A stretch of 64,000 nucleotides of DNA from Hemerocallis citrina (taxonomy: Eukaryota; Streptophyta; Magnoliopsida; Asparagales; Asphodelaceae): NCBI GenBank assembly GCA_017893485.1, contig CM030366.1, positions 53,462,568 through 53,526,567 of the forward strand. Reading direction: 5' to 3'. Positions 1 through 58,324 of this stretch are shown here, in pieces; position 1 is the first letter of the stretch, and every line of letters starts with the position of its first letter. The position numbers and the translations under genes are program-made. The notes under the pieces are model-generated. The model did not search any database. It was given only the letters and a program-made list of their open reading frames with translations, and was not told where the DNA came from.

Positions 1-876
1 ATCTATAGTCTAATAGCATTATCTAGTAGTATTTGTGAGTTAATAAGATTGAGTTGTGAGAGGGATTGTGCTTGCATTTTTCCAATGAGGAGAAGGCCGG
101 CTATTCAAGGAGGGAAGCTCTCGGTTTTGGTGGCTTGGAGGCGTGTGCGCGCTTGTGCAAGGAGGAGAGGCATCTCGTTGCAAAGGACTTTCGTTACTAA
201 TTGAGTTTTTTCTCTCCATACAAGGTGGGCTAATTTTCCTTATTTCTAATTAGGAATTATGCTAGTATTATATTGGGTAATGATGAATGAAAAATGACTA
301 ATAAGAATATACATTTAATTGAAAAGATGATCTCTATGTGATTGATTGGTTGATATGCAAAATTATGTGTGATGCTATTAGTAAAATTCAAGATTTGTGT
401 GCAATATGGTTATAAATTGTGTGAAGAAATCTTTGTTGGTAGCATGATAAATTATGTGCAAAAGATTAGTTTATTGATTATGTCGCTTTATATGCTAAAT
501 TGGACATTTTGTTAAGACGTAGTAATGAATAAACTAACATGAAATTTTTATGGTTGGAAAATGAATAAGAGTAGAGAATTGTTATAGAGATTGATGAAAT
601 TATAATGTCAAAAAAAAAAAAAAAAACATTAGCAATATGTCACATTAACCAAATTGTATGGTAGAAATGTGTTATTTATGGAGAAAATTATGTTTAATTA
701 TTTAAGAATTTATTTTCATCTACTGGAATAAAATTCATGATGGAAAAATATTTAATTCGGATTTTACAGTATATTAGTAAGAACTTGTGATATGCAATTT
801 TGATGAACGTCGAAATATTCTAAATAACAGAGACTGTGGATTAAATAAAGTTAAAATCATACTAGTGACAACCTGA

Positions 877-1090
877 GCACATAGCTCAAGTGGTCATGTT
901 GTGCGGTTGGGCTTCCCGGGTTGACTGGTTCGAACCCCTGTGGCATACATTTGTTTACATTATGTTAAAAAACATAAGAATCAACGACAGAGAGTAATAA
1001 ATACTCTCTGCCTTCTCTTCATATCGCCAGCGGCAACCGGTCTAGTGGTTGTGGCTTTCGGTTGTTTCCCTGTGGTGCTGGGTTCGATTC
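877..1090 (+). promoter_or_regulatory. Paired tRNA-like (Pol III type 2 promoter-like) modules in D-type LTR
   Basis: Module 1 has an A-box-like TAGCTCAAGTGG at 882-893 and a perfect B-box-like GGTTCGAACCC at 927-937. A 5-bp stem (GCACA 877-881 with TGTGC 900-904) encloses the A box. Module 2 has CCGGTCTAGTGG near 1037-1049 and GGTTCGATTC at 1081-1090. The spacing within each module fits tRNA promoters. A full cloverleaf with an acceptor stem is not evident, so this is not called a tRNA gene. The same pair recurs at matching places in other LTRs of the window. Pol III activity is inference. Confidence 0.5.
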
Positions 1091-2102
1091 TTGCTGTCGG
1101 CAAGAATGAAAAAAATTATTTTTTTGGGGGTTTTAAGTGTCCAAAAATTATGAAAAAAATATGGTTATTCTCCTAAAAATGTAAGGGACTTTATAAAAAT
1201 GATTTGGGGATTATTTGAATGAAATTAACTATGATTTGGAGATAAAATGCATAAATAGAACTATGGTTCTATATGTTTATTGATGTGAAATTATAACTTA
1301 CAAGAATAAGTTGAAGTGAAGGATTAGAAGATGATTTGGCAAAAAGGAAACTTTGTGTGTGACATAATGCAATTTATTCTCATTTGAGAATAATGTGGAA
1401 CAATATGAAGTGTGTATATTTGTTAGTGATGTGAAATTTGATATGATGTGATAATTGATAAAGTATATGAAATTCATGTACAGTTATGGACTATTTGAAC
1501 AAATTAGAAATCATGAATTGAAAAGAGAATATACATGTGAGTATGAGAACTCAACATGGGAAATTTATGAGTTGGAAATTGTGAAATGAAAATTAAAATA
1601 AAAGAGTAGCTAAGTCTCCCCCGGCATTTGGAAATGAAATGAAATGAAATGAAATTAGACCAAGGTTGGTCATGTTGAAATGAACGAATAAGTCCGGTTT
1701 AGTGGAGAGGCTAACTCTAGAGATTTGATTTTTGTTCATGGTTTTTGATATAAAACTAAGGATTAGTACATAGTGGAGACGCGATGAAAGTAGAAGAAAA
1801 ACACGAGTATGGGGCCATCGGATTAGCGGTGTGAGAGTGATCCACAGGCTGCCTGCTTGATGTGTCAAGACATGGCGTGGGCACTACTCCAGAATTATCA
1901 TCCCGGTGGCGACGCTTGTGGGATTTCGAGTGGCTATGGGTGGTGCCATTGTTCCATGGCGGAGGCTGAATTGTCCATAGTTTGCCTGCTCGATGCGTCG
2001 TGTCAGTGCGTGCGATTCCCCTCCAGGTTGCCTGGACATGGGCTCGTAGATCATAGGATATCTAAGACACTACCGTAGTTACAGTAGTAGATTAAGTCAT
2101 AA

Positions 2103-23330: not shown

Positions 23331-24937
23331 AACGAGTTGTTAGCGCCGTTCTAGGTGTAAGTTGGGCGTTTAGCTCGTTATTTAGTTTAATGAAATTGAA
23401 CAAGATGTTTAAAACATAAACTAGCTAATTTCATTAAAAAATAAACTAAGGAGGTGCTCTAATGGTTGGCCTTTATTGAAAGAAAAAATAAATGGCTACT
23501 CTAGTGGCTGGCCTTTATTACAAAAAATTCGACTGTTAGAAGTGGGTGCTTCAGACGCTCTCATTGTAAATCTTGAGATGTTGCTCATTCCGAGCCCCTG
23601 CTATCATATCCTTGCCCCCCGAGTCTTCAAGTTGGTGAGCCGAAGGGTGAACAACTTGATAGACCTTGCCTGGTGTAACATCCCAGAAAAAACAAAATAA
23701 CTTTTTATATTTTTGCACATGCATTTCATGTAAAATTTTATACACTTTGTCGCTAAATTTTCCAAAAGTAATGCACATTTTTATTCTCATTTTATTTGCC
23801 ACATTTGAATTAATTATTTTCCTTTAAAACCCATAGGCCTAAAGTCTTTTTCAAAGCCCACTAGAAAAGTAATTAAATAAAAGCTCATACTACTTGTCAT
23901 GTGTAATACCCCACACACATTTAAATTCAATAAAAATAAATAATTAAATTATGTGAAGTGTACACATAGCACGTGCACACGTGCAGTGTGCACACTACAA
24001 AAGATGACAAGCTGCTCATGGAGAGGTGGAGAGAGAAAGTAGTGGGGTAGTGGGATTATTAGTGGATAATTAGTTATTCTAACTACCTATAATTAACCCT
24101 ATAAATACCCATCATCTAAGCTATTCAACACACAAAAAAATTAATCAAAACTAAAAGATTTAGGCTGGCTTTCGAAATTGGCTTGGTATGGATTTCGGTG
24201 GTGACTTGCTTGGCTTTTGTGGGATTCTGGAGTTCTTTTTAAAGGGGCTTGCTACTAGGATATTCTTCTAATAGGTGGGTATCCTTTCTTACATTCTAAT
24301 TGTGTATAGGTATGCTTAGGAAATTCATGTTAGAGTTGTAGATGTAGCAAGAGTTATTTAACTTCTATTACCTTTGTGTGATGTATATTGTATTAACATC
24401 TAGAAATTTAGTAGCTGATAAACGTGAAAAAAATGCATGTTAATGGAAACTTACAATGTAGAATTTTTGTGTAGTCAAACTATAATTTAAATTAGATGGC
24501 TTTCATGCAAATTGTAGTATACTATGATTGGGTTTTGTAGATAAATTGTAAGTGTATATGAAGGGGATTTAAGTTGTGCTTTGATTGGGGTAAATTATAA
24601 TTTTATGGGAGAGAATTTCCCCATCATTTCAAATAATGTTAAAAAGAAAAATATATTCATGCTAGTAGAGTAGTAGTGGTAATTTATAAAGGCATATGTG
24701 TATGAAAGTTCCTAAAAATGGCTATCTACGTTTGTTGTGTATAGAATCAAACTACTGTAAATAAAATCAATATGAAATCGTTGCTCGAATTTTAGAGATG
24801 TATTTTATGAACACATAAATTTGAGACAAATGATAGAAATCAATTTTAATGAAGAAGTTAAAATATAAGGGAAAACAAAGAGCGGGGTTATAAAGAATGT
24901 AACCCCTATATGATCAGGAATGGTGTTGGGCTCTTGT

Positions 24938-25160
24938 GGCTAGCGCGTGCACCTTTGTGCTAAGCGCTGCCACGTGGCTTTGGGGGTTTTTGTGGTCGGG
25001 TGTTCGACCCTGGGTTGGCTCTGTTTCTTATTAATTTTTTTAAAATAATGATGAAAGGAGCAGTTGAGTGTTTAAACAACTCAGAAAACTCTATACATGA
25101 TGGGAGTTAGCTTACTGGTTTGGCATTGGCTTGGGTGCTATTTGGCTCTGGTTTGAGCCT
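24938..25160 (+). promoter_or_regulatory. Paired tRNA-like modules in C LTR
   Basis: Module 1 has TGTGGCTAGCGCGTGCAC near 24936, enclosed by an AGCGC/GCGCT stem, and a B-box-like GTTCGACCC ending at 25010. Module 2 has TTAGCTTACTGG (about 25107-25118) and GGTTTGAGCCT (25150-25160). Both are more degenerate than those in the D LTRs. T-runs follow within 30-40 bp of each. Confidence 0.45.
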
Positions 25161-25944
25161 GGGGGTGCACTTTTGGATATTTTACATTTATTTTTATAAT
25201 TCAAGTTTTAAAAAGGGGGGGAAAACTTCATGGAAAGTTATTATAATATTATTAGAACAATTTGGGATTTACTTCAGTCTATTCTAAAAATATTTTGAGA
25301 AATTTAAAGGGCATATTTATATGTTAGTTGAGTCTGAGTTCAGGTTTAAAACAAAGAAGATGTATATGGTTAAAGATTTGAAGAGTTGGACTATAATAAA
25401 AATCAAAATTATGAGTTGGGAATAAAGAGTCTCAAGTGATCAATCTTTTAAAAAGTTTTTGTATTAAAAAGAAAATAGTGATCTATTCTAAAAAGAGGTT
25501 TTTGTATTAATATACTTGAAGTACAAAAGAATGTGAAAAGGGTTTATTAATCAAGGGAACTTTGTGAATTATTAAAACGAATGGTTGTGTGATTAACCAA
25601 GAAGAGCTTACTTCATGATTGATAAATAAGAGAATAAATGAAAGAATTGAATATACGAATGGAATTGAGAATATGAATATTGAGGTATGAGTACCCCCAT
25701 AATGTCGAACATGAAAAGATGTTGATTCTAGAGGCTAAGTGAGACCCAAGTACCGGAAAGTGATGATAATGATTATGATTTTTGAGAAAGGGCCAATATG
25801 GGCTATCGTTCTCACTATATTGTTTAAGACCAGTAGGTGGGTAAGCTAGCTCTAGGTGGTACTATTTATTCATGCTTCAATCTTAAGGATAGACACTAAG
25901 AGTCGATGAAATAAAACCTAGAAAAACGTAAGTAAGGCGTGTCT

Positions 25945-26250
25945 ATATAGTCGGGCAGTGTACTCTGGGACTATAGATTCAGTCGGACGGTGTACTCTGG
26001 GACTGTAATTGCCCTGCATCCAGTCGGGTGGTGTACTCCGGGACTGTGATGTGGAACGGGATGAGCCTCAACTAAATTCGGGACTATGAATTATCATGTG
26101 TTGTACTCCGGGATCACGAATAGTCGGGCGGATGGGAGGCGGATCTTTGATATTCCGGGGCTGGAACGACACTTTCGGGATGTCCGCATGAGGTGGATTA
26201 TGTATAGTCGAGCGGTGTGCTCCGGGGCTAGGATCCGTACTTGTGGGATG
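25945..26250 (+). repeat. Minisatellite in C LTR
   Basis: Degenerate units of about 35-45 bp are built on AGTCGGGCGGTGTACTCCGG and GACTGT-AT. At least six partial units are visible, then the repeat fades before the conserved module at 26287. The related copy is at 59805-60110. Confidence 0.65.
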
Positions 26251-26286
26251 TCTGAAACCTATTTCATTACCGAGTAGGTTTTCATG

Positions 26287-26390
26287 ACGGGGGTTTGAAC
26301 CCTATAATATGGAGTACTTAGGTGCTTTCCCTCGGACCTATGTAGAATGGTATGCATAGAATCCGAACAAGTATGCATTAGTGTCATCAT
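26287..26390 (+). repeat. Conserved LTR module (copy 3 of 7)
   Basis: It carries GGGGGTTTGAACCCTATAA, CTCGGACCTATGTAGAATGG and ATGCATAGAATCCGAACAAG, then TATGCATTAGTGTCAT. Confidence 0.7.
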
Positions 26391-26806
26391 AGTATAATAA
26401 CTGCATTAGGCATTAAGTCATATCATACACTGACATGTCTAGGATAGTCACTTTCTACACTTTATTGTGCATTCAAGTTTGTGTTTGCTAAAGTAAGAGA
26501 ATCATTGTTTTAAAACATTCTGTCAGTTGTAAGCAACTAACGTGCCCACAATTTTCCAGTGCATTGCTTGGATTGGCAAAAGACATAAAGATGAATTGAT
26601 GCTAAAGATTATTTTTCAGGTTTAAGTTGTTGATGTTAAAGTTGTGTATATCATGTTGTATTCATTTAAATTCCGCTGCGTTGATGTAATGGACAATATT
26701 GTAAGAAAAAAAGTTTTAAATTTCTTATAAAATTGTACGAATTTGAAGTAAAAGATCCTGTTGTGCTACGAATTACATGTAAATTAGAATTTGAGGCTTT
26801 ACAGAG

Positions 26807-26966: not shown

Positions 26967-27497
26967 ATGGCTGATAACCAAGACCCAGTGGATGAACTAG
27001 AATGGTTCTTTGAAGAAGATCCGGAAGAAGAAGAGCCCCAAGAAGAAGAAGACACCGAGGAAGATGGCGAATTGCCTGAATCTCTGGAGATCACTCCACC
27101 TTCACTTGATTCCCCAGATGAATCCTCAGATGATGAGCCAGTTCAAGACGAGAAGGACCACGTTATGGCTTCTCTCCAGGAGTAATTGACCATCCATAAG
27201 TGGAGAGTAAACCATTTGGAAGCTCATCTTGCGGAGGACAAGCAGAATATTATAGCTCTGAGTCACCGAGTGTGGAGCTAGAGATGATTCGACCCAGGAA
27301 TGCTCAGTATTTTACCCAGCTAGAAAACAAAAGGTACTCTGCTCGGTGAACTCGATACCACTTCGTGGGCCAGGGATCGGGGATGGTGAAACTCATTGGG
27401 AAAGCAGGAATGCTGTCGAAGAAGCGAGGAAATGAAGAAGGAAATAGATGAACTACGGGAAGAGCTCAGGGAAGCCAAGAGGAACCGTAGGATCTAG
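26967..27497 (+). pseudogene. Element 2 accessory acidic/coiled-coil ORF (broken)
   Basis: This frame precedes gag and matches the intact ORF at 53857-54267. The start is set at MADNQDP by homology; an upstream ATG at 26940 is also in frame. The first 70 codons are very acidic (EEDPEEEEPQEEED and so on) and contain LPESLEIT. After an in-frame TAA (27183) the similarity continues as LAEDKQNIIALSHRVWS, then stops at 27279 and 27285. About 130 bp of unmatched sequence follow, and the original register returns for the end, EELREAKRNRR, before TAG at 27495. I do not recognise it as a named family. It is neither capsid nor nucleocapsid. Confidence 0.7.
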
Positions 27498-32992: not shown

Positions 32993-34467
32993 TGTAATGC
33001 CCCGATTTTCATTTATGAAAATTATTTATTTTGCACGTAGTGTGCACGTGCAATATTTTTGGTAGAATTGAATCTATAATTATTTTCATTATGATGAGTA
33101 TAGATATTTATATATGTGCTCTTTAATCATTTTTATATAAAGCATTTTTCAAATAGACAAAAGCCTTTCTTTTTAAAGCCCAAATTGAATTTATTTATTT
33201 TCTTTTTATAAATTATTATTTTGGCCCATAAACTAAAGTCCATGAGCTATTCTTATTTTAAATACAACTTGTAATGTAGAATACATTTTAAAGATTATTT
33301 TATAATGTACAACTTTTGTTAAATGATGACAAATGCATGCACGTGCATTGCACGTACACGTGCAAATGCACCATACTTGTGCATGGCCGGTTTTGATCTT
33401 TGGAGGGAAAAGAAAATTTTCAAGTGGAGTCATGGGTGGTGGTTACTTGATCATGGTTGGTTATTGTAACTCCTCCTTGAATCCTAGCCCACTGTTTTCT
33501 AACTCCTAAGTTAATCCTAGCCTTCCATTTTCCTAAATTTTTAGTATAAATACCCCCCCTAGCCTAGTTATTCTTGTGCTAATTATTCCTCCAAACCTAT
33601 AGTTTAAAATACATTATTAGTAGTTTAGTAAGTGAGTTAAAAGATTGAGAGTTGAGTGGAGAATTTGTGCTTGCATCAACAAAGAGGAGAGGCCGGCATC
33701 AACAAGGGAGGCTCGGGTTTGACATTCTTGGAGCTCGTGTGCGCGTCGACGAGGAGGAGGATCGCTCTTTTGCCAAGGACATTTGTTTAGGAGGTGTTGC
33801 TAATTGTGTTTCTCTCCAATTAAGGTGGGTAATTTTCCGTATTTCTAATTAGGAAGCATGCTAGATTTGAATTAAAATGGTGATGCATGAAAAAGATTAA
33901 TAAGAGTACATTTTAATTGAAAAAAAAAATAGCTTATTGATTGATCGAAATGTTGGTATGCAACTTGTACGTGGTTCTATCATTAAATTTAAGTTGTGTG
34001 TAAATTGATTATAGCCATGGATTGTTTGAAGAAAACTTCATTATTAACATCAAGGACTATGTGCAAAAGTTAGTAAATTGACAATGTTGCTTTATGTGAT
34101 TGAATGGACTCGTGTGATAATGTTGTAATAGATGACTAAAAAGATATAATTTGTGTGTTGTGAAATGAATAAAAACAGAAAATTGATGTAGAGATTATTG
34201 AAATCAAAATTGGATAAGAAAGTCGAAAAAGAAAATGTGGTAGTAGTAACTTGCAATTTAACCAAATTGTATGAGGAATATATGTTTAATTATTAGAAAA
34301 ATTATTTTTGTATACTGGAGTATAATTTATGATGGGAATAGTCAAACTGGAAATTTACAGTAAGTTTAATAAGAGTAAAATCAAATCAGAGCTTCTTGAA
34401 CATCGAAATGTTCTATTAAACAGAGGAAATTAATTTAATTAAAGTTCGAGTTGTACTATGACAACTT

Positions 34468-34704
34468 GAGCATATAGCTCAAGCGGTCGGGATGCTCTTA
34501 TTTGCTACAGTGCTGTGCGGGTTTCCTCAGGGATCGATGGTTCGATTCCCAGTAGTACCACATATTTTGTTTCGTGTTTTTAAAAGATTAAATGAACTGC
34601 AGCCAATAGCACTTAATGCTCTCAGCGCTCTTGTATACCGCTGGCGCAAGTGACCTAGTGGTCTGTGCCTGTGGCTTGTTTCCCTGTGGTTGCTAGTTCG
34701 ATCC
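34468..34704 (+). promoter_or_regulatory. Paired tRNA-like modules in D LTR (best example)
   Basis: Module 1 has TAGCTCAAGCGG (34475-34486, A box) enclosed by a perfect 6-bp stem, GAGCAT (34468-34473) with ATGCTC (34492-34497). Its B box is GGTTCGATTCC at 34539-34549. Module 2 has GTGACCTAGTGG near 34650 and AGTTCGATCC at 34695-34704. Against 877-1090 the stem bases change but pairing survives in part. No acceptor stem is evident. Confidence 0.55.
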
Positions 34705-35469
34705 TTGGTCTCGGCCTGTGTTTAAGTTGTTGGAAAAAAAATATTTTTGGGTGTTTTGATGATTGAAAAATTATGAAAAAATTATGTTTATTATTCTAAA
34801 AATATGTGGGACTTATGAAAAATAATTTGGGAGTTATCAAAATAAAATAGAGTATATTTGTGAGAACAAATGTATAAATAGAACTATGGTTCTACATCTA
34901 TATTTCGTGGAGTTTATAATTCGCAAAGGAACTTGAAATAAAGTGCTAGAATGGAAGTATAATAAAGAAAGAAATTATATGTAGTGATGTGATGTGAATT
35001 ATTCTCATTGGAGAATAGTGTGAAAATTATGAAATGTGAATATTCATTTAGTGATGTAATTTTAATGTGGAAATGATATTTGATGAAATACATAAGGAAT
35101 AATTGAATTCCATGTATGGCTATGGACTCATGAATAAATTAGAAATCATGTTATTCGAAAAGAGAATGTTATTGAGCATGAAAACTCAAACATATGGATT
35201 ATGAATTGAAATTGAAAATTAGAGTGTAGTCAAACTCACACCGGCAAGTGAAAGTGATGAATAATTATGATTATTGATATTGAAAAGACCAGTTTGGGTC
35301 ATTGTGAAATGAAAGAAATAAGACCGGTAGTAGTGAGAGGGCTAACTCTAAGAGATTGATTTTTGTTCATGATTTCATTAAATTTAAGGATTTAGTACAT
35401 AGTGAAGAGGTGATGAAGTGAGAGAAAAACACAAGTATGAGAGCCTCGAGTCTGCGAAGTGGGTGTGAT

Positions 35470-35650
35470 TCACAGAATGCATGCTTGATGCGTCAAGACA
35501 TGGTGTGGGCACTACTCACAGAAGATCGGGATCTTGGCGACGCTTGTGGGATGTTTGGTGACTGCAAGAGGATCGTGTGCCATGAAGGAGGCTGAATTGC
35601 CACAGAATGCATGCTTGATGCGTCAAGACATGGTGTGGGATTCCCCTCCA
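35470..35650 (+). repeat. Direct duplication in D LTR minisatellite position
   Basis: CACAGAATGCATGCTTGATG followed by CGTCAAGACATGGTGTGGG occurs at about 35471 and again at about 35601, a period near 130 bp. The corresponding place in the LTR at 1-2644 (1845-2040) shows a more diverged form. Confidence 0.75.
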
Positions 35651-35726
35651 GGTTTTCTGTACACGAGCTTGTACTCATAGATCATCTAAGATACTTACCG
35701 TAGTTACAGTAGTAGATTAAGTCATG

Positions 35727-35835
35727 ACGAGGGATTGAACCCTACAAAGATGAAGAACGATTAAGAGGCTTGCCCTCGGACCTATGTAGTATGGGATGCA
35801 TAGAATCCGAACAAATGTCCATTAGTGTCATGTAA
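35727..35835 (+). repeat. Conserved LTR module (copy 4 of 7)
   Basis: Nearly identical to 2103-2210: GAGGGATTGAACCCTACAA, GAACGATTAAGAGGCTTGCC and CGGACCTATGTAGTATGGG. Confidence 0.7.
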
Positions 35836-36288
35836 TATAAATAATTTTATTAAGGACTAAGTGCACAATCACAACACGACATCATTAGGGTATTCCCTTT
35901 AGTTTGATATATGAAAAGTTTGTGTTTGTTAAATATGGAAAATGAGTTATACTATTTCCGGCATAGAGAGGATGACCGTGTATAATATTCGTCGGTTGAA
36001 TAAACTGACGTACCCACAGTTTTGTATGCAGGGTAATGACATGATAAAGATTAAAGAAGCACAGATGCTTAGAGATTATTCAAATGTTGATTATTCAAAT
36101 GTTGATGTACATTTATTTAAATGTTATAAATTTGCTTCCGCTGTACTATGTAAAGTGTAAAGTTCTCCTGTAACTCTGGTGTAAAGTGAAAAGTTCAAAT
36201 TTCCTTGTAAAATTGTACTAAATGAAGTGTAAAGATCCTGTGGAATTTCGAATTCAGTGCATTTTGGAATTCGGGGAGTTACACATCT

Positions 36289-36489: not shown

Positions 36490-36595
36490 TCGTTATCCCA
36501 AATTAATTTTTAATATTTTTGCACGTGCATTGCACATAAAATTTTGTATGCATTGTTGTCCCTAAAATTTTCAAAGAAGTATTGCACATTTTTCT

Positions 36596-39500
36596 TGTCA
36601 CACCCCGCTTCCCAAAAAGGAATATGGAATATGGATACGTGACTAAGCCTAGCGAATGATTTTCATCATCCATAAGCTGTCAGGATCTTTACAATATTTC
36701 ACAAGAACAATCAGAGTAGGAAGCAAGAGAAGTCAACCACGTATGCATAAATGAGTCAATATACCAACAGGAATTTACTTAAAACAAAATTTAATAATCT
36801 CAAATAAACCAGATCTGAACAAGTCAATAATTTTGGGTCACATTGCCCAATACAAAATAATCCAAGTAACATATCTATTATTCAAATAAGCAACAGAAAA
36901 TAATAATAATAATAATAATAATAATAGCAAAACTCCAGCATCTAGAATCTCATATCACCTACTCCATTTGGCAGCTGATCTATAAAATCTACAATTTAGC
37001 AAAATTACTGGAAAAGGAAAAGAAAACAAAATGCCCGTCAATGCAAGTTATGGGCTGCTTGTAGTGCAGGCACAAGTACATGGGAAAGAATAAACTACAT
37101 AGCATGGAATAGATATGGCAACAAAATAGAACAACTAGCATGAATCATGAACAAAATCAAGTAATGAGATAACAGGTATATATATCATGCAACAGGTAAC
37201 AGGTATCATGCTAGAAAGTGAATATGTAACAAGTGTCAAGTAGAATGTACAGATAATCATGTAACAGGTATTATGTAACAGGTATCATGTAATAGGTAAC
37301 AGGTATCATGTCAGGTCAAGTCTTGTATTATTACTATTTAGGTAGCACTTCATGCGTCCCAAACTTTTACCACTTGGTTGGTACTTACATGCAAATTATG
37401 TTTAGACCTAGTGGTGGGTTTCTATAGGGCCGTGTACTCAGGCGTCAGGTAACCAGGTAACAGGCACGAATCACATAGTTGTAAAATCGTGGCAACAGGA
37501 ACAGGCATGAATCATGTAGTCATGAAACATGGCAACATGTAGTAATAACAGGCATGAATCATGTAATCATGAAATATGGCAACATATAATAATAACAGGC
37601 ATGAATCATCACGAATCATAGCAACATATATCACATAGTAATAACAGGCATGAATCATGTAATCATGAAGCATGGCAACATATAATAACAGGCATGAATC
37701 ATGTAATCATGAAACATGGTAACAGTTAATAGGAAATACGGCCCCCCTTCTGAGTACACATACCTATATTGTCCACTACTACGGTCTTACCCTTAACCCC
37801 AGCTTAATTATTTGTTATTATTATCAACAGGCATATACGTGTCATAAAACAGAGCAAGAATAACATGGCATAAACAGGTAACAGGTACAGGATGAAGGAT
37901 AAACATGTACAGGTGAAAGACAACTCATAAAAGGATAGAACAACAAAAATTCTAGTCCAGGACAGCAAGACAGTGCTGCACCAAATATGAAATTTCCGTT
38001 GCCAAAAACATGCAAATCTGGATCCATCAGAAAATCTGGAAAATAGACTCCCGGCCGAATCTAGTAGATATATATAAGTCATATGGTAATTCACAAAAAC
38101 ATAACTCAAAACAGATTTGTATCCTGAAAATGTGTTTAGCCAGAAATCAGAAGTTTGTATTCATACACAGGAAAACAACATAAAAATGTATTGCTTAAAT
38201 CCAAGAAAAATCTAATTCCCTAGTATGTTAAGTATTAGAATATAAAGTTCCAAAATTTTCCAACATAAATAGAATAGTGAAGTAAAATAAGAAAACAGCA
38301 AGATACGGTAGTTTTGTAAATCTGGAATCACAAATACTGCAATACTAAAACAGCAATATCTCACAAAATATAAATCGAAATCCAGATCCGTCAAAAGGGT
38401 GATAAAATAGATATATTAGTCTACAATTCATATTCACAAAGTTTTTATAGACAACAATTAGAATCAGGTCGAATTATGTATCTTTACTGAACAGCAAGAA
38501 AATTCTGCAAGTATAGTAGTTGTTTGCAAGTACAGAATAGTTTGTAAAGTTCGTTAATTAAATACACAAAAATTAGGGGTTAATCCCAATCAAGTCTAAT
38601 TGTAATCAGCAAAATATTTGATCAAAATATTATATTTAACATCAGTAGAAAAATAAATTACCATACAAAATGCATATAAAACTGGATCTGGGATTTTAGA
38701 CACATCTGTAGTAAAATAGTCATAACTCGCAACTTATAAATCGAAACTGAGATCTGTCAGAAAATCTGAAAAGTAGACAGAATTCTCAAAAATTCATATT
38801 CAAAAATAATTTTCATATACTGACCTTAATAGGGTCTATATTACTGAAAAAAATGGTGTAACAAAAAGACAGAAATCCTCCTCATGCATAAAATCAACAT
38901 AAATCATATGAAACACATTCAAATCATCAACAAACATAAAATAGGGTATACTAGGTATCCAAGCAACATGGTATAGTGTATTTAGCAAGTCTACAACAAG
39001 TATACTACAAGTAACACAACCAACCATATGATATCATATGAACAACATGCATTTATACAACAAGAAGTGGCCATCTCTAAGTTATTTCATGTCATATGTG
39101 TAATGAGGCAACTACGGGCGGGTCAACACAATGGAGACAAGATATAACAGGAGTTTTGCACAAGAATTGTCTCTAGAACACAACTACACTACAGGCGGTA
39201 TTTAGTACTTGTATTTGCAACAGAAATTAATACAAGTTACTTACCTTATATCCGATGCCGAAAGAGGAGCAAGAACAAGAATAACAGAAACGGATTCTCG
39301 GGAAACGAACTAAACGAACGTATCGAACATGAACCGCAAACACCAACCCAAACAATGAACCAAAACTCGAGATCACACACAACCATAAGAAAGCAAGGGA
39401 GGGACGGCGATGGGGATGACAGCTGTCGATGCTGCTATTTCTGATGCTCTCTGCGTCGGGCATCGGGGGAGAACAGCACCGCAGGGAGCACCGGGGGCTG

Positions 39501-40306
39501 GTGGTCGCTGCAATCAAAGGTCAAGGACACAAGAGGCCGAGGCCAATGTAGGAGGCACTGAGGTGACTGTTGGGGCTGCTGGCGTTTGCTGCGAGGTTGC
39601 GACAGGAAGGTGCGAGAGAGGCGGAGGAGCACAGGGTGGCTATGTCGAGGGCTTGCTGGGTCGGGATAAGATGGAGGCCGGGAGTAATACAGGGTGAAGA
39701 GGCAGTTGGGATGGGTTTAGAAGAGGTAGGGTTTCGGGAGGTATAGGGTTGAAGATGAATAGGTGGCTAGAGTTGAGAAGTAAGGGATATGAACAGGTGA
39801 ATATATATAGGTATAGGGTATTAGGGTTATAAGATGGCTGATGGTTAAAATGGGTGTAAACGGGTTTGGGTATAGGTAAATGTGTATAGTTTTTAATAGG
39901 GTTATTGGTTATTGGGTTTGGGTGTGAAGTAGGATAGTTGTTGGGTTAATATGATTATGAATAGGATTAGGGTATAATTAAATAGAATATCGTGTTTTGG
40001 GTACAAAAAATAAAAAGAAGTATAGTGATCCAAAAATAATGAGATGGGTATAAAATGGATAAATAAAATAGGACATGAACAATATAAAATAAAGAGGATA
40101 AAAAATACAAGCTCGATCAAACAGAGACGAACAATGGAGGACAATAGAATCAATAAGATCAAATAAAAGATGAGAAAAAATTTAAATAGATGAATATATT
40201 GAAAAAGAAGATCCAATACATGGTCCAAAAAGAGATACAATGAGAAAAATACACAAAAAGAAAAAATACACCAAAAAATACAGAAAAATGAAAAACTGGT
40301 GTTACA
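36596..40306 (-). mobile_element. Solo LTR, family B, inverted
   Basis: This 3711-bp unit reads TGTCACACCCCGCTTCCC at its left end (the reverse of GCGGGGC-TGACA) and GGTGTTACA at its right end. Flanks TTTCT (36591-36595) and TTTAT (40307-40311) fit a 5-bp duplication with one change. The empty site in the C LTR at 23790 reads CACATTTTTATTCTC. It carries an AAT microsatellite at 36899-36926 and the variant tandem block at 37180-37740. The frames at 37804-38109, 39227-39517 and 39410-39697 are chance. Confidence 0.88.
37180..37740 (-). repeat. Tandem repeats in inverted B LTR
   Basis: Oligomers GTAACAGGTATCATG fill 37190-37310. Units of roughly 50-65 bp with AACAGGCATGAATCATGTAA and TCATGAAACATGGCAACAT repeat about five times between 37500 and 37735. 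Confidence 0.7.
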
Positions 40307-41460
40307 TTTATTCTCACTTTATTTATTACTTTTTGTATTATTTTTATAAAAACCCATGGGCCTAACAAATTTTTCAAAGCCAACAAAATTTTAATTAAAT
40401 AAAAACCTGTACTACTTGTCGTGTAAAATACCCATTTTTTATTCAATAAAAAAATAAATAATTAAATTATTTGAGTGTACACATAGCACGTGCACGTGCA
40501 CACGTGCAATGTGCACACTCCAAGGGGAATGGCCGGCTGTTCTTGGAAGGTGGAGAGAGAGTAGTGGGGTAGTGGATTAGTGAGTGGGCAATTAGTTATA
40601 GAACTACTCTAATTATCTCTACTAATACCCTACACCTAGACCATTTCTAAACACTACAAAATTAATCAAAAACCAAGAGGATTAGACTAAGGTGTTTGCG
40701 GGTTGATGACTATTGGGATATTCAGTGGGATTTTGCTTGGCCTTTTGTAGATTTTGGAGCTCTTTTGAAGGGGGACTGCTACTAGGATACTCTTTTAATA
40801 GGTGGGTGTCTCTACTTACTTTCTAATTGTATATAATTCAATCTTAGAAAATTCATGTTAGAATTATAGATGTAATTTGAATTATTTAACCTCTAATGTT
40901 TTGTTTGATGCATATTGAACTGATATCTAGAAATTTATTAGTTGATGAATGTGGAAAAATGCATGTTAATGAAAAAATTGTAATGTAGAATTATGGTGTA
41001 GTTGAACTACAATTTATGTTAAAATATATCATATGATTGTCATGCAAAATTGTAGTATAATATGAGTAGATTTTGTAGATGAATTGCAAGTAAATTTAAG
41101 TTGAGTTTGATTTGAGTAGATTATAATTTTGGAGATAAATTTTCCCATCATTTTAAATAAAGTTAGAAATAAAAATATATACATGTTTTAGTAGAAGTGT
41201 TGGCAATTTATAAAAGGCATATTGTGTATGAAAGTTCTAAAAACCGCTATTTACAATTGTTGCGTATAGAATTACTTTATTATAAAAAAAATCAACATGA
41301 ATTCGTTGCTGGAATTTTAGAAATGTGTTATATGAACAAATAGATTTGATACAAATGATAAAAAACAATTTGAAGGAGTAAATTAAAATATAGGAATAAA
41401 CCGAGAGTTGAAATATAAAGTTTTTAACTCATATATGTTCAGGATTGATGCTTGGTCTTT

Positions 41461-41685
41461 GTGGCTAGCACGTGTGCCTTGCGCTAGGCACTGCCACGTG
41501 GCGTTGGGCGTCTCTGTGGTCTTGGGTTCGAGCCTGGGTGTGCTCTGTATTTTATAAAAAAAATTAAATAAGATCCAAAGAGGAATTTTCGACATTTAAA
41601 TGTTTCAGAACACTTTATACCTGAGGTGTGAGTTAGCTCATTGGTTTGGCATTGGTTTGGGTGCTGTTTGGCGCTGGATCGAGCC
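41461..41685 (+). promoter_or_regulatory. Paired tRNA-like modules in C-like LTR
   Basis: Module 1 has GTGGCTAGCACG (41461-41472), a GTGCC/GGCAC stem and B-box-like GGTTCGAGCC (41525-41534). Module 2 has TAGCTCATTGG (41634-41644) and GGATCGAGCC (41676-41685). The order and spacing match 24938-25160. Confidence 0.5.
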
Positions 41686-42916
41686 TGGGGGCTCGCTGTT
41701 GGGTTTTTAAAATTTTTTAATGATTCAAGCTTTGAAAAAGGGAAAAAACTTCTTGAAAATTTATTATAAAATTATTAGAACGATTTGGGAATTACTTCGT
41801 GCTATTCAAAAATTACTTAAAGAAATTTAAAGGGCATTATTTTATATGTTAGTTGAGTTGGAGTTTAATTTTAAAATAAAGAAGAAATTTATAAGATTGA
41901 GAATATCAAGAGTTGGTTTATAATGAAATTAAAGCAAAGTTTGAATTGAAAATAAAGAAATTCTAGTGATGATTTATAAAGAAGTTGGTACTAAAAATAA
42001 TAATTTAATTAAAGAAACGAGTTTTGTTTGAAGTATATATTAGTGTGAAAAGAGCTATAAATGTTCGAAAGTGATTAATTTTGAAGAAATGTGTTTCGAG
42101 AAAACTTTGGTAAGTGATTGGTTTGATTGGTTAACTAAAAAGTTGTCTATGAGAAATTCAATTTGAAAATTGTTATTGAATGAGTTATAATAGTTGAATA
42201 CTTTACGGATAAAGAGAATTGTTGAATAAAAGTTAAAATATTTATGTTGAGGTTGGATATAACCTATTTGATCTCAAGAGTGAGATGGTTGTTGGAATCT
42301 AGAGACTAGGCGAGACCCTAGAAACCGGCATTGTGAATAATTGAAATTTGAGGAGTAACCTGTGTGGGTTGACTCTCTCTTTGAGAAGTAGCCAGTGTGG
42401 GCTAACTTTCTCCTGTGTTGATTTAAGTCCGGTAGGGTAAGCTAGCTCTAGGTTGTGATGATTATAACTGTAACCCCCCGAATTCCAAATAACACTGAAT
42501 TCGAAGTTCCACAGGATCTTTACACTTCACTTCGTACAATTTTACAAGGAATTTAAAAACTTTATTTTAATAAAAATTACATCAGAGTCTTTTACATCAA
42601 CACGCAGCGGAATAAATAAAATACAACAATGATAAATGTACAACTGTAATAAATTTAGCATTTAAGTAATCATCATCAATAAATTCATCTTTATATCTTC
42701 TTGTAAACTCCAAGTCCTGCATATAAAAATGTGGGCACATCAATTGCTCACAACCGATGAAATATTATACATGGCCATCCTTGCTATGCCGAACAGTATA
42801 ATGATTCTTAAATACTTTAGCAAACACAAACTTGATCACAAACAAATCTCCAAAGGGACTATCCTATTGAGGTCGTGGGTGCTGTGCACTTAGTCCTTAA
42901 TACTGTTATTTAAATT

Positions 42917-48701: not shown

Positions 48702-48841
48702 TCCAATATTGTAGAAATAATTATTTTCATGAAGTCTAAATATTTTTTTAGAAGAATAATAGAATTTTTTCAGAATTTTTATCTCAAGAAAAACCTCAAA
48801 AAATTAAAAAAAACCAAATGGAAAAGAAAAGGCCAACACCA

Positions 48842-49058
48842 GGTTTCGAACCCAGAATCTGAGCCCAAACCCGCGCGTGAACAATATTAGCCTTAACGTG
48901 CACCCGCTAGCCAAATAGGCCAGAGCAGCTAATTGTTATAGGAGGAAATTAAATTATACTAATGTTTTGGCTCTCAGCATTGAGTAAAAAATCATATTTC
49001 AGAAAAATAAAGTTTCTGGAGAGACTCGAACCCAAGACCAGTAGCTCCACCGAGCTAC
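48842..49058 (-). promoter_or_regulatory. Paired tRNA-like modules in inverted A-type LTR
   Basis: On the minus strand, the pair nearer 49058 has A box TAGCTCGGTGG (49058-49048) and B-box-like GGGTTCGAGT (49033-49024). The second has ATTTGGCTAGCGG (48916-48904) and GGGTTCGAAACC (48853-48842). T-rich sequence follows within about 20 bp. Confidence 0.55.
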
Positions 49059-50496
49059 AGTAAAGGTCTTAAAACACACTCAAAGACCAACTTGTCTGTC
49101 ACAAAATGAGTTGAGTTCCTCAAACTCCAAATCCCTGTTTGTTACTAATATTTCATAATTCAAAACTCTTAAAACTCCTTATCTCTTCAAATTTATTTCA
49201 TGAAAAATTCTAGATTACTGATATTAAAAATTTGCAACATAACAGTAACTAAAAACTATTATTTTGACATATGCACATGAACTTTCCTTCCTAAAATGTG
49301 TTTTATATCTACATTTCGACATTTGTAAACAACCATGATTTCCATCAAGGTTTAGCACCAAAACTTTCACATATGTTTGTTTACTTGTTTTCTTTTATTT
49401 TTTACAACATTTCTAGGACATAATCTCTTTTATCATACTAGTGTCACATTAATTAATATAACATATAACCAATGCTTCAATTAACCACTAGCCATCTACA
49501 AACATACATTCTATATCTAGCATGGTTAAAATTTCACATTTTCATAACAACATAATAATCACATTTCATAACAGTATGCATGATAATCTAAATTTAACCA
49601 CTAATACTACATCTTCAAAAAATTACTCAAGCATCATACTCCTAATTAGAAAGGATTTAAGAAACACCCACTCAAGGAAATTTAATTCCTAGAAATTTCA
49701 CTCCTAGAATGAGAGCTCCTAAAAATCCACGCACAAGAAAGACCCCATTTCGGCCAAGGCAAAACAGCAAGTACAGCTCATCATCACTTTCGACCAGAGA
49801 CATCCCCAAACTTCACTTCATTATGTATATATGTGTGTATATATATATATAATGATAGAAAAAAATATAAATGTATGTATGTATTAGGTGGAGTAGCACA
49901 GGGCTATGCTGGACTTGGTGATGGCTCCGGATTTGATAGAGGAAGAAAGAAGGGAAGGACAATGTGAGGGGAGTGAAGGGTATGAGTATATATACATTTA
50001 TATATATATGTATACACATTTAGTATAGTGGATTTTTAAGTAGAGAAGCAAAGGCATGCTGGATATGGGGATTTGGTCAGTGGCTTTCGGCAATGAGCAG
50101 AGGAAGAAGTTAAGAGGATGATGAGAAGGTGGAGGAGTTAGGGGGTGATTATAAAGAGATTAATTGAGTAGTTATTATAACTACCCATTAATCAACCCAT
50201 TATCCTACTAATTCCACTCTCAAACAATTCAAAAACCTGTCTTTCCCTCCTCTCCAAAACAGTTCGGTTTGCCCCCCATTTCAAGTCCAAAAACACGTGC
50301 ACGTGCTTTGCACTTGCACACACTACACAAAAATCGATTATTTGTATTTTTAAATCAAAACTTAGGTTATATATGTATGTAAGAAATTAGTTTAATAAAA
50401 ATGTATAGATTTTCATGCACAATTAAAATAAACATATACATACTCCGAAATTTATTTTGAAAACAAATACGCTTAAATACGCGCACCGAAAAACAC

Positions 50497-50541: not shown

Positions 50542-52054
50542 TTGTAATATCATAAATTTTTATTTATAATTAATTAAGAAATTGTTGATTTTACGTATTG
50601 TGCACGTACAAATTCTTGTACATTTTTCCTCATAAATTATCTCTTTTATTACATGAACAAACAATCGTTTTTTTAAATCTTTCTCCTTATTTACTAAAAG
50701 CCTATTTTAAAAGCCTAGGCCTATTTTTCTAATTTAGCCAATCCTAATTAATTAAGTGTTTTATTAATAACCCATGGGTCTAAAAGCCAATTAATTTGAA
50801 GCCTACTAATTAATTTACCTTTTAATTGTTATAACATGTAGTGTAGACACATTTAATAGACAATAAATTAACTAATCATGTACAACTTATTAATAGGGGT
50901 ACTAGATGAGACACGTGCATTGCACTAGCACGTGTGTAGTTGTGCATGGGGGCATGGCCGGATGGAGCAAGGAGAGATGGAGAGAGTGGAGTTGTGGATT
51001 GAGGTGGTTATGTGATCATGGGTAGTTGCTACAACTCCCTAACTCATCCTAGCCTTTGATCTCTACCCATTTGATTTAATCCTAGCCATCTATTCTCACC
51101 CTAAAAATGAATAAATACCCCCTATTTCTTCTCATTTAGTACACTAGAAAATTTATTAAGAAAGAAAAGATTAGAGTGAGAAAAAGATTGAGAACTTTAG
51201 TGAGTAAAAGATTGAGTGTTTTTGTGTGTGTGTTCACCCCAAGGAGAGGCCGGCCTACATCAAAGCACAAGGAGAGAGAGAGCTCGGGTTCCATACAAGC
51301 AAGGAGGAGGAGACGCGTTGGTGGCACAATCTAGGAGGAGAAGGCTACATTCGTGCATTCTAGGAGATTTCTAGGAGCTTTTTTATTTGTTTTTCTCCTA
51401 TAGGTGGGTGATTTCTCATACTTCTACTTTAGACATCATGCAAGGGTATGGATTGGTAGAATTGCTAAGGAAAAACTAAGTAATTTAGCCTCATGTTTGC
51501 TTATTTAGAGAAAATTTGTAGCTAAGAGAATGCTTGACAAATTGATTGCTAGTTGATAAAATTGTGATTTAATGTGCTAGAATCTATCATGTTGCCATGA
51601 CATATATTTTTGAAATATGCTTTATTGATAAATTTGTGCTTATGAAACGAATGATTGATTAAATGCATCATGGAAATTTGATTGTCTAAATTAAAGCAAC
51701 ACCAATGTAGAAAGATGAAAACTTGTGTTCTAAAAATATTGTAGGATAATAACAAGTAAAAAAATGAAGAAATAAAGTAGTTTTTGTGGAAATCTAGATT
51801 ATAAATTGTGTGAAAATGTGATTTGTTCTCAATGTCAAAATTATGGACATAGAACATAAAATAGGACCAAGAACGCATGTTTTATAAGTCAAATAATGAT
51901 TATAAAAATACTGTTTTACTGTAAATTTATATAGTTTATAATCTGGAAAGTTTTGATACAAAAAGAGAAGAAAAAGAACTAAAAATGTTTTGGAATTATG
52001 AAAAATTAGTAATAAACAGAAAACTGGATCAAAAACAACCCAACTCATTTTTAA

Positions 52055-52181
52055 GATGGGTGAGTCACTTGGACCTACTGGTCATCGGGTGCACTTTAGA
52101 GCGCTCACTTTAGCGTGGGGGTTGGCCTTTGGTCGTGGATTCGAAACTGGGTAGAGCCCTTTTAGTTTCTTTTTTTTTTTA
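52055..52181 (+). promoter_or_regulatory. tRNA-like module with T-run in A LTR
   Basis: An A-box-like GGTGAGTCACTTGG near 52060 is followed by B-box-like GGATTCGAAACTGG (52137-52150) and a run of T at 52170-52180. The T run is the kind of signal that ends Pol III transcripts. Only one clear module is seen here. Confidence 0.4.
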
Positions 52182-53158
52182 ATCCTAATATTTCTCTAAA
52201 ATGATTTAGAGTTTATTAAAAATAGTTTCATAATATTTCATGTATTTTTGAGAGATAAAAAGTGGATTTTACTTTAAAGAACTCAAGTTTATCAATTAAA
52301 AGAATTAGAAAGGACTTTTATAAATTGTGACTCTTGTATAATTAAAGAGAGATGGATATTTGGATTGCAATTAGATTTTTCTTCTTAATGAGATCTTATG
52401 ATTTTCTATACTTGATTGAGATTATTTGAAATACATACAACGTTATAAGTGATTAATTGATAAAAGATGTTGAATTAAATTATTTCATGTGATTGAGATA
52501 CTTTATGTTATAAGTTTATAAAGGAAATATTCTCTTTAAAAAAGAGATATGAATAAAGAAAATGAAAGATTAATTTGAGATTGATTATGACTTATTGTTG
52601 ATCTCTAGAAAGTGATAGTTGTTGGAATCTATAGGCTAAGCAAGACTCTAGTAACCGGCAGTTTTATTAATGATTTTGAGAGCTAACCAGTGTGGGTTGA
52701 GCATCTCTTGAGAAGTAGCCAGGTAGGCTGACTGTCTTTGTTGTTTTGGTTTAAGTCCGGTAGGGTAAGCTAGCTCTAGGTTGTGATGATTTTCTTTTAA
52801 AACAAACAAAATTGTAAGGATTAGATACGTAGTGAAGATGTGATGAAAGTAAGAGAAAAATATGAGTATGAGGGCCTTGGAGCTACGGCGTGAGAGTATT
52901 CACAGGCTGTCTACACGATGCGTCGTGTCATAACGTGGATATGTCTCCAGGAGTTCGTACCGCAGGCGGTGCTTGTGGGGTGTTTGGAGACTGTGGGTGG
53001 TGTCATGTCCCATGACGGAGGCTGGTTTGTCCATAGGTTTTACACGATGCATCGTGTCAAGATGTGAGATTCCCCTCCAAGCTGTCTGGACATGAGCTCG
53101 TAACTCAATAGATTATCTCGGATATTTACCGTAGTTACCATAGTAGTTTAGATTATGG

Positions 53159-53262
53159 CAATGGATTGAACCCTATAAGATGAAAAACGATTAAGGGCTT
53201 GCCCTCGGACCTATGTAGTATGGGTTGCATAGAATCCGAACAAGTGCGCAATAGTGTCATGT
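53159..53262 (+). repeat. Conserved LTR module (copy 6 of 7)
   Basis: It carries AATGGATTGAACCCTATAAG, ATTAAGGGCTTGCCCTCGGA, CCTATGTAGTATGGGTTGC and ATAGAATCCGAACAAGTGCG. Confidence 0.7.
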
Positions 53263-53706
53263 AATATGAATAACTACATTAAGGATTAAGTGCACAGCAC
53301 AACACGACATCAATAGGATAGTCCATCTTTAGCTTGTTTTGTGATCAAGTTTGTGGTTTGTTAAAGTATTTAAGAATTGTTATACTATTCAGCATAGCGA
53401 GGATGGCCGTATATAATATTTCATCGGTTGTAAGCAACTAACGTGCCCACAGTTTTATATGCAGGACTTGGAGTTTACAAGAAGATATAAAGATGAATTT
53501 GTTGCTGATGATTACTTAAATGTTAAAGTTGTTACAATTGTACAGTTATCATTGTTGTATTTTATTTATTCTGCTGCGTGTTGATGTAAAAGACTCTGAT
53601 GTAATTATTGTTGAAATAAAGTTTTAAATTAATTGTACGAAATGAAGTGTAAAGATCCTGTGGAAATTCGAATTCAGTGTTATTTGGAATTCGGGGTGTT
53701 ACAGAG

Positions 53707-53718
53707 AGGTATCAGAGC
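53707..53718 (+). other. Element 3 primer-binding site
   Basis: AGGTATCAGAGC matches the plant tRNA-Met(i) PBS with one change, three bases after the LTR. Confidence 0.88.
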
Positions 53719-53856: not shown

Positions 53857-54267
53857 ATGGCGGACCACTTCGACCCAGCTGGCGGTGATAACTGGCACAT
53901 AGCTGAGGAGGACTACTACCCCGGACAAGCAGACTCCGACGAAGAAGATCTCGTGGAATTTGAGGAGGAATGGCCTGAGTCCCGAGAGATCACTCTGCCT
54001 CTGGATTTATCTGATGATTCTTCCGAAAAGGAAGAACCAGTTCCGAGCAGTCTTATTGTGTCTCTTCAGAGGCAAGTAGAGACTCAGAGGGAGAGAGCAG
54101 AGCTACTGCAGGCCCAGTGTGCGAAGTTCAAGGAGGATATTGCAATTCTTAGTCATCGTATTTGGGATCTCGATAAGAGAAAGAACATGTACGATGTACT
54201 GAAGAAAGAAGTGGAGGAACTACAGGAAGAGCTTCGAGAAGCCAAGAGGAACCGTAGGAAACTATAA
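53857..54267 (+). CDS. Element 3 accessory acidic/coiled-coil ORF
   Basis: This is an intact frame of 136 codons between the PBS and gag. The start is the ATG of MADHFDPAGG, which aligns with MADNQDP of element 2. Residues about 10-60 are strongly acidic with EDYYPGQADSDEEDLVEFEE and WPESREIT. Residues about 65-130 form a predicted-by-eye coiled coil (LQRQVETQRERAELLQAQ, VLKKEVEELQEELREAK) and end in the basic tail KRNRRKL. A 119-base gap and a stop separate it from gag. I do not recognise a family. It is the only complete retroelement reading frame in the window that also has a diverged homologue in it. A role in RNA or particle assembly is conceivable, but there is no direct evidence. Confidence 0.7.
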   Translation: MADHFDPAGGDNWHIAEEDYYPGQADSDEEDLVEFEEEWPESREITLPLDLSDDSSEKEEPVPSSLIVSLQRQVETQRERAELLQAQCAKFKEDIAILSHRIWDLDKRKNMYDVLKKEVEELQEELREAKRNRRKL

Positions 54268-57150: not shown

Positions 57151-58324
57151 ATGGACCTGAATCTGAGGCAACGGAGATGGCTGGAAGTACTTGAGGACAT
57201 TCGTCCTGAAATTAAGTACCATCCTGGGAAGGCCAATGTTGTTGTTGATGCACTTAGCCGTAAGAGCAGTCTGGCTAGTTTGATTACAACTCAGAAGCAT
57301 CTTGCAGAGGAATTGGATCGAGTTGGTATTAAAGTTGTTCTACAAGGCTTGGGATCATCCTTAGCTCAATTAAGGCTTCAGCCCACACTGAATGAAAGGA
57401 TTATAGCAATTCAGAGAGAAGATGCAGAGATTCTGAAGATGAAGGAGCAGGTTGGTGCCGGCAGGTTGTCCGAATTTCAGATCATGGATGGAGTGCTGTG
57501 GTTTGGAGAGAGGCTGTGTGTTCCGGATCAGTTGGATTTGAAGGAGAGTATTCTTCAAGAGGCGCATGCTACTCTTTTGTTTGTGCATCCTGGGAGCACT
57601 AAAATGTACAAGGACATTAAGAAGCATTTCTGGTGGTCAGGTCTGAAGTGGGATGTGGCTGAATTTGTGGCGAAGTGTGAGATCTGTCAGCAAGTCAAAA
57701 CTGAGAATAAAAACCCAGAGGTTTACTGCAACCGTTACCTATTCTAGAGTGGAAGTGGGATAACATTAGTATGGATTTCATCATGGGCTTGCCCAAAAGT
57801 TCAAAGGGCAATGATGCAATTTGGGTCATAGTCGATCGACAAACCAAGTCTGCTCACTTATTGGCAATGAAACTTACTTCTTCTATGAACAAGTTGGTCG
57901 AGTTGTATGTTGGATAGATCGTCAGGCTTCATGGTGTTCCGTTAACCATTGTGTCTGATCGAGATGCACGGTTTACTTTGCATTTCTGGAGGTGTCTTCA
58001 GGCAGCTTTGGGTACCAAGACAGATTTCAGCACTGCTTTCCATCCTCAGACATATGGGCAAACTGAGAGAGTCAATGTATTCTTGAGGATATGCTTCGGT
58101 GTTGTGTGCTAGATTTTGGAGGCAGTTGGGAAAGGCATCTAGCTCTGGTAGAGTTTGCCTACAACAATAGTTTTCAGACTAGTATCGGGATGGCACCGTA
58201 CTAAGCTCTGTATGGCAGGAAGTGCAGAACACCTGTTTGTTGGTTTGAAGTGGGGGAGCGGCAGATGTTTGGACCTGAGATTGTGTAGCAGACCTCTGAA
58301 AAGATCGATCTGATCAGGAAGAGG
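57151..58324 (+). pseudogene. Element 3 pol: RNase H end and integrase (broken)
   Basis: After LNLRQRRWLEVLEDIRPEIK, the linker leads to the H2C2 zinc finger, HATLLFVHPGSTKMYKDIKK and [13 protein letters not shown]. The frame is lost near 57720. The core then reads [20 protein letters not shown] (first Asp, 57771), a stop near 57917, [11 protein letters not shown] (second Asp, about 57958) and [12 protein letters not shown] (Glu, about 58060). A small deletion or frameshift after RVN and a stop in MAPY-ALYGRKC follow. The DDE residues are still readable, but the protein cannot be made in one piece. Confidence 0.9.

Follow-up and report, generated by a model that had tools for sequence, protein, structure and literature searches.

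Do the giant LTRs of plant gypsy elements carry tRNA-like Pol III promoter modules, and were such modules inherited, captured repeatedly, or formed by chance? The question was raised by a stretch of 64,000 nucleotides of the Hemerocallis citrina genome (contig CM030366.1, positions 53,462,568 to 53,526,567; hereafter the window), for which an earlier note had described paired A-box/B-box modules in five long LTRs and a single one in a sixth. We analyzed 11 modules in six LTRs of four families (D, E, F, and G) within this one window. The modules are probably an old inherited capture, judging from their sequences, and Pol III may or may not still use them.

Results

Comparison of the window with itself (blastn, E 1e-10, among the matches listed) revealed a nest of LTR retrotransposons. 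The LTRs, about 3 kb in size, were D1 (1-2644, truncated by the window start), D2 (32993-36283, plus strand, ending TGTAA...TTACA), E1 (23674-26803), E2 (from 36490 to 42468, split by an insertion, with its main part at 40307-42468), the 5' LTR of the F element (50543-53703, plus strand), and G, which runs in inverted orientation (50542 down to 42469) and is interrupted by a LINE-like insertion at about 48700 to 43908. D1 and D2 were relatives with 73% identity, E1 and E2 were relatives with 76% identity, and F and G were related over their last 1.4 kb (83%). Likeness between D, E, and F/G was confined to the later part of the LTR among the matches listed. GC-rich short repeats were observed in the 3' half of E1 (25940-26260, TCGGGCGGTGTACTCCGGGACTG-like) and in D2 (35471-35639), the latter including an exact repeat of 39 bp whose copies are 130 bp apart.

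The F element encodes gag and RT, and its pol end (58289-58810) contains a chromodomain (PF00385, 25.9 bits against a cut-off of 25.1; F alone was examined) beside a Tf2-type SH3 domain (SH3_Tf2-1). The PBS GGTATCAGAGC, which we take to be complementary to the 3' end of the initiator Met tRNA, lies after both E1 and F, at 53708 in the latter. Gag, RT, chromodomain, Tf2-type SH3 domain, and PBS together identify the F element, as far as coding sequence can tell, as a chromodomain Ty3/gypsy chromovirus. Its clade is most likely Tekay/Del, in which long LTRs are a clade trait, and D, E, and G were assumed to be Tekay/Del-like chromoviruses as well. In the available parts of Neumann 2019 (PMC6317226), Tekay/Del elements are reported from seed plants only; tRNA-like LTR modules are not mentioned in those parts. 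F shares with the clade a chromodomain and a Met-type PBS.

The modules are given here with their A and B boxes. Both boxes were free of mismatches in D2 module 1 (34468..34562, plus strand; A box 34475-34486, TAGCTCAAGCGG; B box 34539-34549, GGTTCGATTCC; A-B gap 52; TTTT 15 nt past B), in D1 module 1 (872..950, plus strand; A box 882-893, TAGCTCAAGTGG; B box 927-937, GGTTCGAACCC; gap 33; no TTTT within the 64 nt examined past B), and in G module 2 (48825..48940, minus strand; A box 48922-48911, TGGCCTATTTGG; B box 48852-48842, GGTTCGAAACC; gap 58; TTTT 11 nt past B). Two or three mismatches over both boxes were counted in the following plus-strand modules: D2 module 2 (34640..34729; A-like 34651-34661, TGACCTAGTGG; B-like 34695-34705, AGTTCGATCCT; gap 33; TTTT 38 nt past B), D1 module 2 (1026..1106; A-like 1038-1048, CGGTCTAGTGG; B 1081-1091, GGTTCGATTCT; gap 32; TTTT 27 nt past B), E1 module 2 (25104..25175; A box 25108-25118, TAGCTTACTGG; B-like 25150-25160, GGTTTGAGCCT; gap 31), E2 module 1 (41450..41554; A-like 41453-41464, TGGTCTTTGTGG; B 41525-41535, GGTTCGAGCCT; gap 60), E2 module 2 (41630..41701; A box 41634-41644, TAGCTCATTGG; B-like 41676-41686, GGATCGAGCCT; gap 31), and the single module of F (52060..52170; A-like 52079-52089; B-like 52138-52148, GATTCGAAACT), which is followed by TTTT and a run of T11. 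The A box taken by itself was perfect in D1 module 1, D2 module 1, E1 module 2, E2 module 2, and G module 2.

The B boxes that had been placed at 927-937, 34539-34549, and 41525-41534 were confirmed. Pairs of modules were present in D1, D2, E1, E2, and G, with a B-to-B distance of about 149-180 bp, and the claim of two A/B modules per long LTR held to that extent; it was weaker for E1 module 1 and G module 1, which do not match the A+B box consensus of a type 2 Pol III promoter. E1 module 1 (24925..25030, plus strand; B-like 25001-25011, TGTTCGACCCT) lacks an A box of one mismatch or fewer at the usual distance. G module 1 (49010..49110, minus strand) has a good B box (49032-49022, GGTTCGAGTCT) and no A box at the usual distance, since the TAGCTCGGTGG sequence lies only 14 nt before B.

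The A-B gap was 31-33 nt in 5 of the 11 modules (D1 modules 1 and 2, D2 module 2, E1 module 2, and E2 module 2) and 48-60 nt in D2 module 1, E2 module 1, F, and G module 2, with no suitable gap in E1 module 1 and G module 1. The available part of PMC7279448 gives 30-40 bp as the A-B spacing of type 2 promoters, which these four wider modules exceed. In all modules except D1 module 1 and D2 module 2 (9 of 11), TTTT was present no more than 30 nt past the B box, the background being 0.25. The module lies about 1.25-1.62 kb from the LTR start in D2, E1, F, and G; this distance, claimed earlier to be similar, is measurable in those LTRs only, because D1 is cut and E2 is split by an insertion.

Box frequencies were compared with those in shuffled and resampled sequences. 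The window contains 14 copies of GGTTCRANNC where 2.84 would be expected, and none of 100 shuffles reached 14; 5 of the 14 belong to a separate antisense site in U5 (four LTRs and one LTR fragment). The six LTRs have 8 sense-strand occurrences of GTTCRANNC, all of them inside modules and none in F; the expectation summed over the six is 0.97 with order-1 resampling and 0.79 with order-2. Of the 5 antisense occurrences, four belong to the U5 site, and the fifth arises because the D1 B box is palindromic. A and B boxes with one mismatch or fewer each and a gap of 26-60 were found 5 times in sense, against 0.45 by order-1 resampling (sd 0.68, maximum 3 in 100) and 0.51 in shuffles within 80-bp blocks, which keep the local composition (maximum 2 in 100). 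The same search gave 1 match in the other 46,320 bases of the window on both strands, and 3 antisense matches within the LTRs, all at one homologous U5 site.

Other settings gave similar excesses. With up to one mismatch in A, two in B, and a gap of 29-34, there were 5 sense and 0 antisense matches against 0.68 (maximum 3 in 60), and when TTTT within 45 nt was added, 4 and 0 against 0.17 (maximum 1 in 60). A gap of 29-60 with TTTT within 30 nt gave 7 sense matches, two of which overlap in F, and 0 antisense (null 0.73, maximum 4 in 60); limiting this to one mismatch per box left 3 and 0 against 0.07 (maximum 1 in 60). The module counts are not independent, because D1/D2 and E1/E2 are homologous copies.

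On testing each LTR singly, the perfect A+B pairs of D1, D2, and G were each reached by 0 of 200 resamplings, whereas P was 0.035 for E2 and 0.11 for E1, where the antisense strand tied with the sense strand. F did not beat resampled sequence (P 0.51 and 0.53); here the better score belonged to the antisense strand rather than the sense strand (2 vs 3 mismatches). The single module claimed at 50543-53703 is indeed followed by T11 and is not significant alone. In D1 and D2 the antisense U5 site had 1 mismatch, below the null minimum of 2, so scores this good are not unique to the modules. The D and G modules are individually significant, E is borderline, and F counts only through homology. Chance origin was rejected for D and G by resampling and block shuffles, and was not rejected for F alone.

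We further examined if the modules correspond to a known RNA. ARAGORN found 0 tRNAs. The Rfam tRNA model gave no match up to E 10 in three module regions and up to E 5 in the window, where nothing reached the Rfam gathering score and no 5S rRNA match was obtained. The predicted folds were not cloverleaves. By these results an intact tRNA or known RNA family was ruled out. Folding was more stable than in shuffles for G module 2 (z -3.45), D1 module 2 (-2.62), and E1 module 1 (-2.10), the remaining 8 of 11 lying at z -1.07 or higher, and predicted folds differed between homologues. Degenerate A and B boxes without a cloverleaf are characteristic of tRNA-derived SINEs; the modules share this property and differ in sitting inside LTRs.

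A stem around the A box with compensatory bases had been proposed for the D copies. It can be drawn in each copy. In the D1/D2 alignment, TGTGC of D1 faces AGTGC of D2, and ATGCTC of D2 faces a gap whose placement is the aligner's; the 3' arms therefore lie at non-homologous positions and represent no compensatory change. In the predicted minimum-energy folds, GAGC pairs with GCTC rather than as proposed. On this alignment the compensatory stem finds no support.

To relate the LTRs to one another, local alignments were made over about 1.1 kb from a splice-donor-like motif, AGGTGGGT, which in D2 lies at 33823..33830 (plus strand), about 650 bp upstream of module 1, and has counterparts at 24273-24280, 40800-40807, and 51402-51409. 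The module region begins about 650-680 bp past the motif in D2, E1, E2, and F. For G the count starts at AGTGGGT and gives about 560 to module 1 and about 750 to module 2. The best local match between E1 and F consisted of the module and about 110 bp upstream of it, in collinear order (score 124 vs a null maximum of 115 in 60 nulls), and E2-F behaved likewise (126 vs 123). F and G matched at the module (153 vs 118), with a longer match of 446 outside it. The pure module match of E1-G (112) was just below the null maximum of 114, and E2-G gave no match above the null in these alignments. D and G matched best directly after module 2 (170 and 190 vs null maxima of 120 and 118) and, outside that stretch, barely align over about 1 kb. 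D-E and D-F gave nothing above the null except D2-E2 (129 vs 125), a match that was outside the modules and non-collinear.

Module-to-module comparison gave z of 4.9 for E1 module 1 and F, 7.5 for E1 module 1 and G module 2, and 9.4 for F and G module 2. E2 module 1 reached 5.6 to F and 2.5 to G module 2, and also resembled E1 module 2 (5.5) and G module 1 (5.4). Altogether 29 of 55 pairs had z above 2, where values of 2-3 mean little because the modules were picked by their B boxes. The sequences thus compared indicate that E1 module 1, F, and G module 2 are related beyond the boxes. The claim that tRNA-like modules are kept across diverged LTR families is supported by their matching position and these z values. 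On account of that position and relatedness, a single ancient acquisition, possibly with a later tandem duplication, would fit better than separate captures, and the repeated capture suggested earlier appears less likely than shared descent.

Identity within the modules was compared with that of their surroundings. In the E pair (76.8% over the aligned part), it was 78% in module 1, 85% in module 2, 53% in the spacer, and 73% and 82% in the 100 bp before and after. The D pair (73.4%) showed 72% in both modules, 58% in the spacer, and 63% before and 76% after. The 100 bp past module 2 (D 76%, E 82%) were kept as well or nearly as well as the modules. For F/G (55.1%), the module had 58%, with 62% before and 47% after, and 94% of GC-matched windows were conserved at least as well as the module. 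Elevated conservation of whole modules was not found, their identity being about that of the LTR in D, E, and F/G; ranks within the top 1.8% for E module 2 and the top 19% for E module 1 were discarded, the background having included an unaligned tail. Against the whole LTR the modules do not stand out; they are better kept than the spacer between them, which is unusually diverged. Selection, as proposed earlier, finds a mixed picture in these sequences: the modules stand above the spacer (53-58%) and are no better than the LTR in D, E, and F/G. The comparison is between single dead copies and has little power, since it also takes in the neutral decay that followed insertion.

The region between the PBS and gag of the F element contains a 136-aa ORF (53857-54264, plus strand), with a broken homologue in the E element (27075-27491, tblastn 1e-10). 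By our own reading its N half is acidic and its C half coiled-coil-like, and no Pfam family scored above its cut-off. A candidate leader intron in F may extend from the donor-like AGGTGGGT at 51402-51409 to 53856, with TTTCTTGTCTCCCCTTTTTAAG just upstream of the ATG at 53857 as candidate acceptor, and would contain the PBS and the tRNA-like module. AGGTGGGT is the sole match to AGGT[AG][ATG]G[TA] between the F LTR start and the ORF. The donor-like motif is also present in D2, E1, and E2, and the acceptor position in E reads TATAATATG.

The antisense B-box-like GGTTCAA site in U5 lies at 35732-35741 in D2, with homologues at 2107-2116, 26292-26301, 53163-53172, and 60145-60154 (minus). The surrounding U5 block is strongly conserved in an alignment of 7 copies; G and the copy at 5.6 kb in the window have the block with the core GGTTTAA instead of GGTTCAA.

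A scan of genome contigs yielded 29 loci, two of which (L007 and L015) had chromovirus-like coding sequence. L007 encodes a chromovirus RT and L015 gag- and pol-like chromovirus sequence, both with LTR-PBS junctions. They are filed as contigs of the bacterium Labilibacter sediminis CG51 and are probably eukaryotic contamination of that assembly. L015 is the only outside locus with a whole LTR (2.4 kb); no A/B module was found in it by the same scans, and the modules are therefore not universal. Scans of viral contigs gave no relative of the element, six loci matching a PBS-junction pattern only, and a protein search with gag gave no match. In the open literature, none of the matches listed describes A/B-box modules in autonomous plant gypsy LTRs, which is weak evidence of absence.

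Discussion

The closest known system is Helenus (TRIMp3), for which the available parts of Kojima 2024 (PMC10886601) describe an A box (TRGCY...YGG) and a GGTTC B box inside LTRs, as here. According to the same parts, Helenus is mostly without a functional tRNA, SINE insertion has been proposed as its origin, and in plants it is found in Selaginella only. Helenus elements are non-autonomous and 311-1263 bp long, whereas the LTRs of H. citrina are about 3 kb and one element has gag and pol; the modules are also mostly paired, unlike those of Helenus (PMC10886601, as far as available). The present LTRs thus share with Helenus/TRIMp3 the tRNA-like sequence, as A and B boxes only, and are not short non-autonomous TRIMs. 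Cassandra, a TRIM bearing 5S sequence, likewise has a Pol III promoter in a plant LTR; in the available parts of its descriptions (PMC10853983, PMC10886601, PMC12786077), that promoter is 5S-derived, the element is short and non-autonomous, and Pol III transcription is reported, whereas no 5S match was obtained here. Kojima 2024 noted, in the parts available, that "not a few LTRs" in Repbase resemble partial tRNAs, and followed TRIMs only (PMC10886601). For this reason, we regard the present modules as a variant, in giant-LTR elements, of the tRNA-like capture known from miniature elements.

In the reading that we prefer, and to which we give an even chance, tRNA-derived sequences entered an ancestral Tekay/Del-like LTR, were inherited, and work or formerly worked as type 2 Pol III promoters. 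A degenerate tRNA-derived sequence, from a tRNA gene or the head of a SINE, would have entered the LTR of a chromovirus ancestor, and descendant families would have inherited the module, in some cases as a tandem pair. TFIIIC would bind the B box, and Pol III would make short sense RNAs of about 80-110 nt that end at the T run. Such RNAs would arise inside the Pol II-transcribed leader of an otherwise normal autonomous element. Some copies, namely F and G module 1, would no longer have the full promoter. As far as sequence can show it, at least a past function is favored by the regularity of the boxes, their spacing, the T runs, and the sense orientation. A fossil is favored by conservation that is no more than average and by F and G module 1, whose promoters are incomplete.

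That the modules are such a passive fossil, a SINE or tRNA pseudogene carried neutrally since its insertion into the ancestral LTR and now with inert leftover boxes, is a real though lesser possibility. It agrees with module identities about equal to those of the LTRs in D, E, and F/G, with folds lacking a cloverleaf, with the decay of boxes between copies (GGTTTGAGCC in E1 module 2 vs GGATCGAGCC in E2 module 2), and with the missing full promoters in F and G module 1. Neutral carriage explains less well why A+B pairs without mismatch persist in D1, D2, and G though D and G LTRs barely align, why the spacer has fallen to 53-58% while the modules stand at 72-85%, and why T runs are placed as they are. 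Binding of TFIIIC to the B boxes alone, marking or bounding chromatin with no transcription unit, appears improbable: in several modules the B core is more regular than the A box, and a second, antisense B-like site lies within the strongly conserved U5 block, but T runs soon past B in 9 of 11 modules and the mismatch-free A boxes of D1 module 1, D2 module 1, E1 module 2, E2 module 2, and G module 2 would fit transcription units.

Two further readings seem very improbable. The boxes may be a by-product of RNA structure acting in the long 5' leader in processing, packaging, or translation; G module 2, D1 module 2, and E1 module 1 do fold better than shuffles (z -3.45, -2.62, and -2.10), but the other eight do not go below -1.07, homologues fold differently, and the proposed stem does not align in D1/D2. 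Chance resemblance within GC-rich islands of AT-rich LTRs is just as unlikely. A looser and cruder initial scan had found 5 matches over both strands, where 10 resampled windows had 0-4 each, and neither F nor E1 is significant singly; block shuffles, however, gave 0.51 with a maximum of 2 in 100 against the 5 found, and D1, D2, and G were each matched by 0 of 200 resamplings.

A bolder form of the promoter reading is doubtful. It would make these elements an autonomous chromovirus clade in whose LTR leader, perhaps within a leader intron, a tandem type 2 Pol III promoter is maintained. Every LTR would then be a unit for both Pol II and Pol III, and its short sense RNAs would serve the element, for instance as decoys in silencing or as chromatin marks.

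Should the modules be active, many giant LTRs of a plant genome would be latent Pol III/TFIIIC sites, with consequences for the production of small RNAs, for chromatin boundaries, and for the false annotation of tRNAs. Activity would also contradict the published expectation of Pol II-only autonomous elements, as the available parts of Kojima 2024 argue that autonomous partners must use Pol II (PMC10886601). If they are fossils, the modules would still suggest that tRNA-like capture extends beyond miniature elements.
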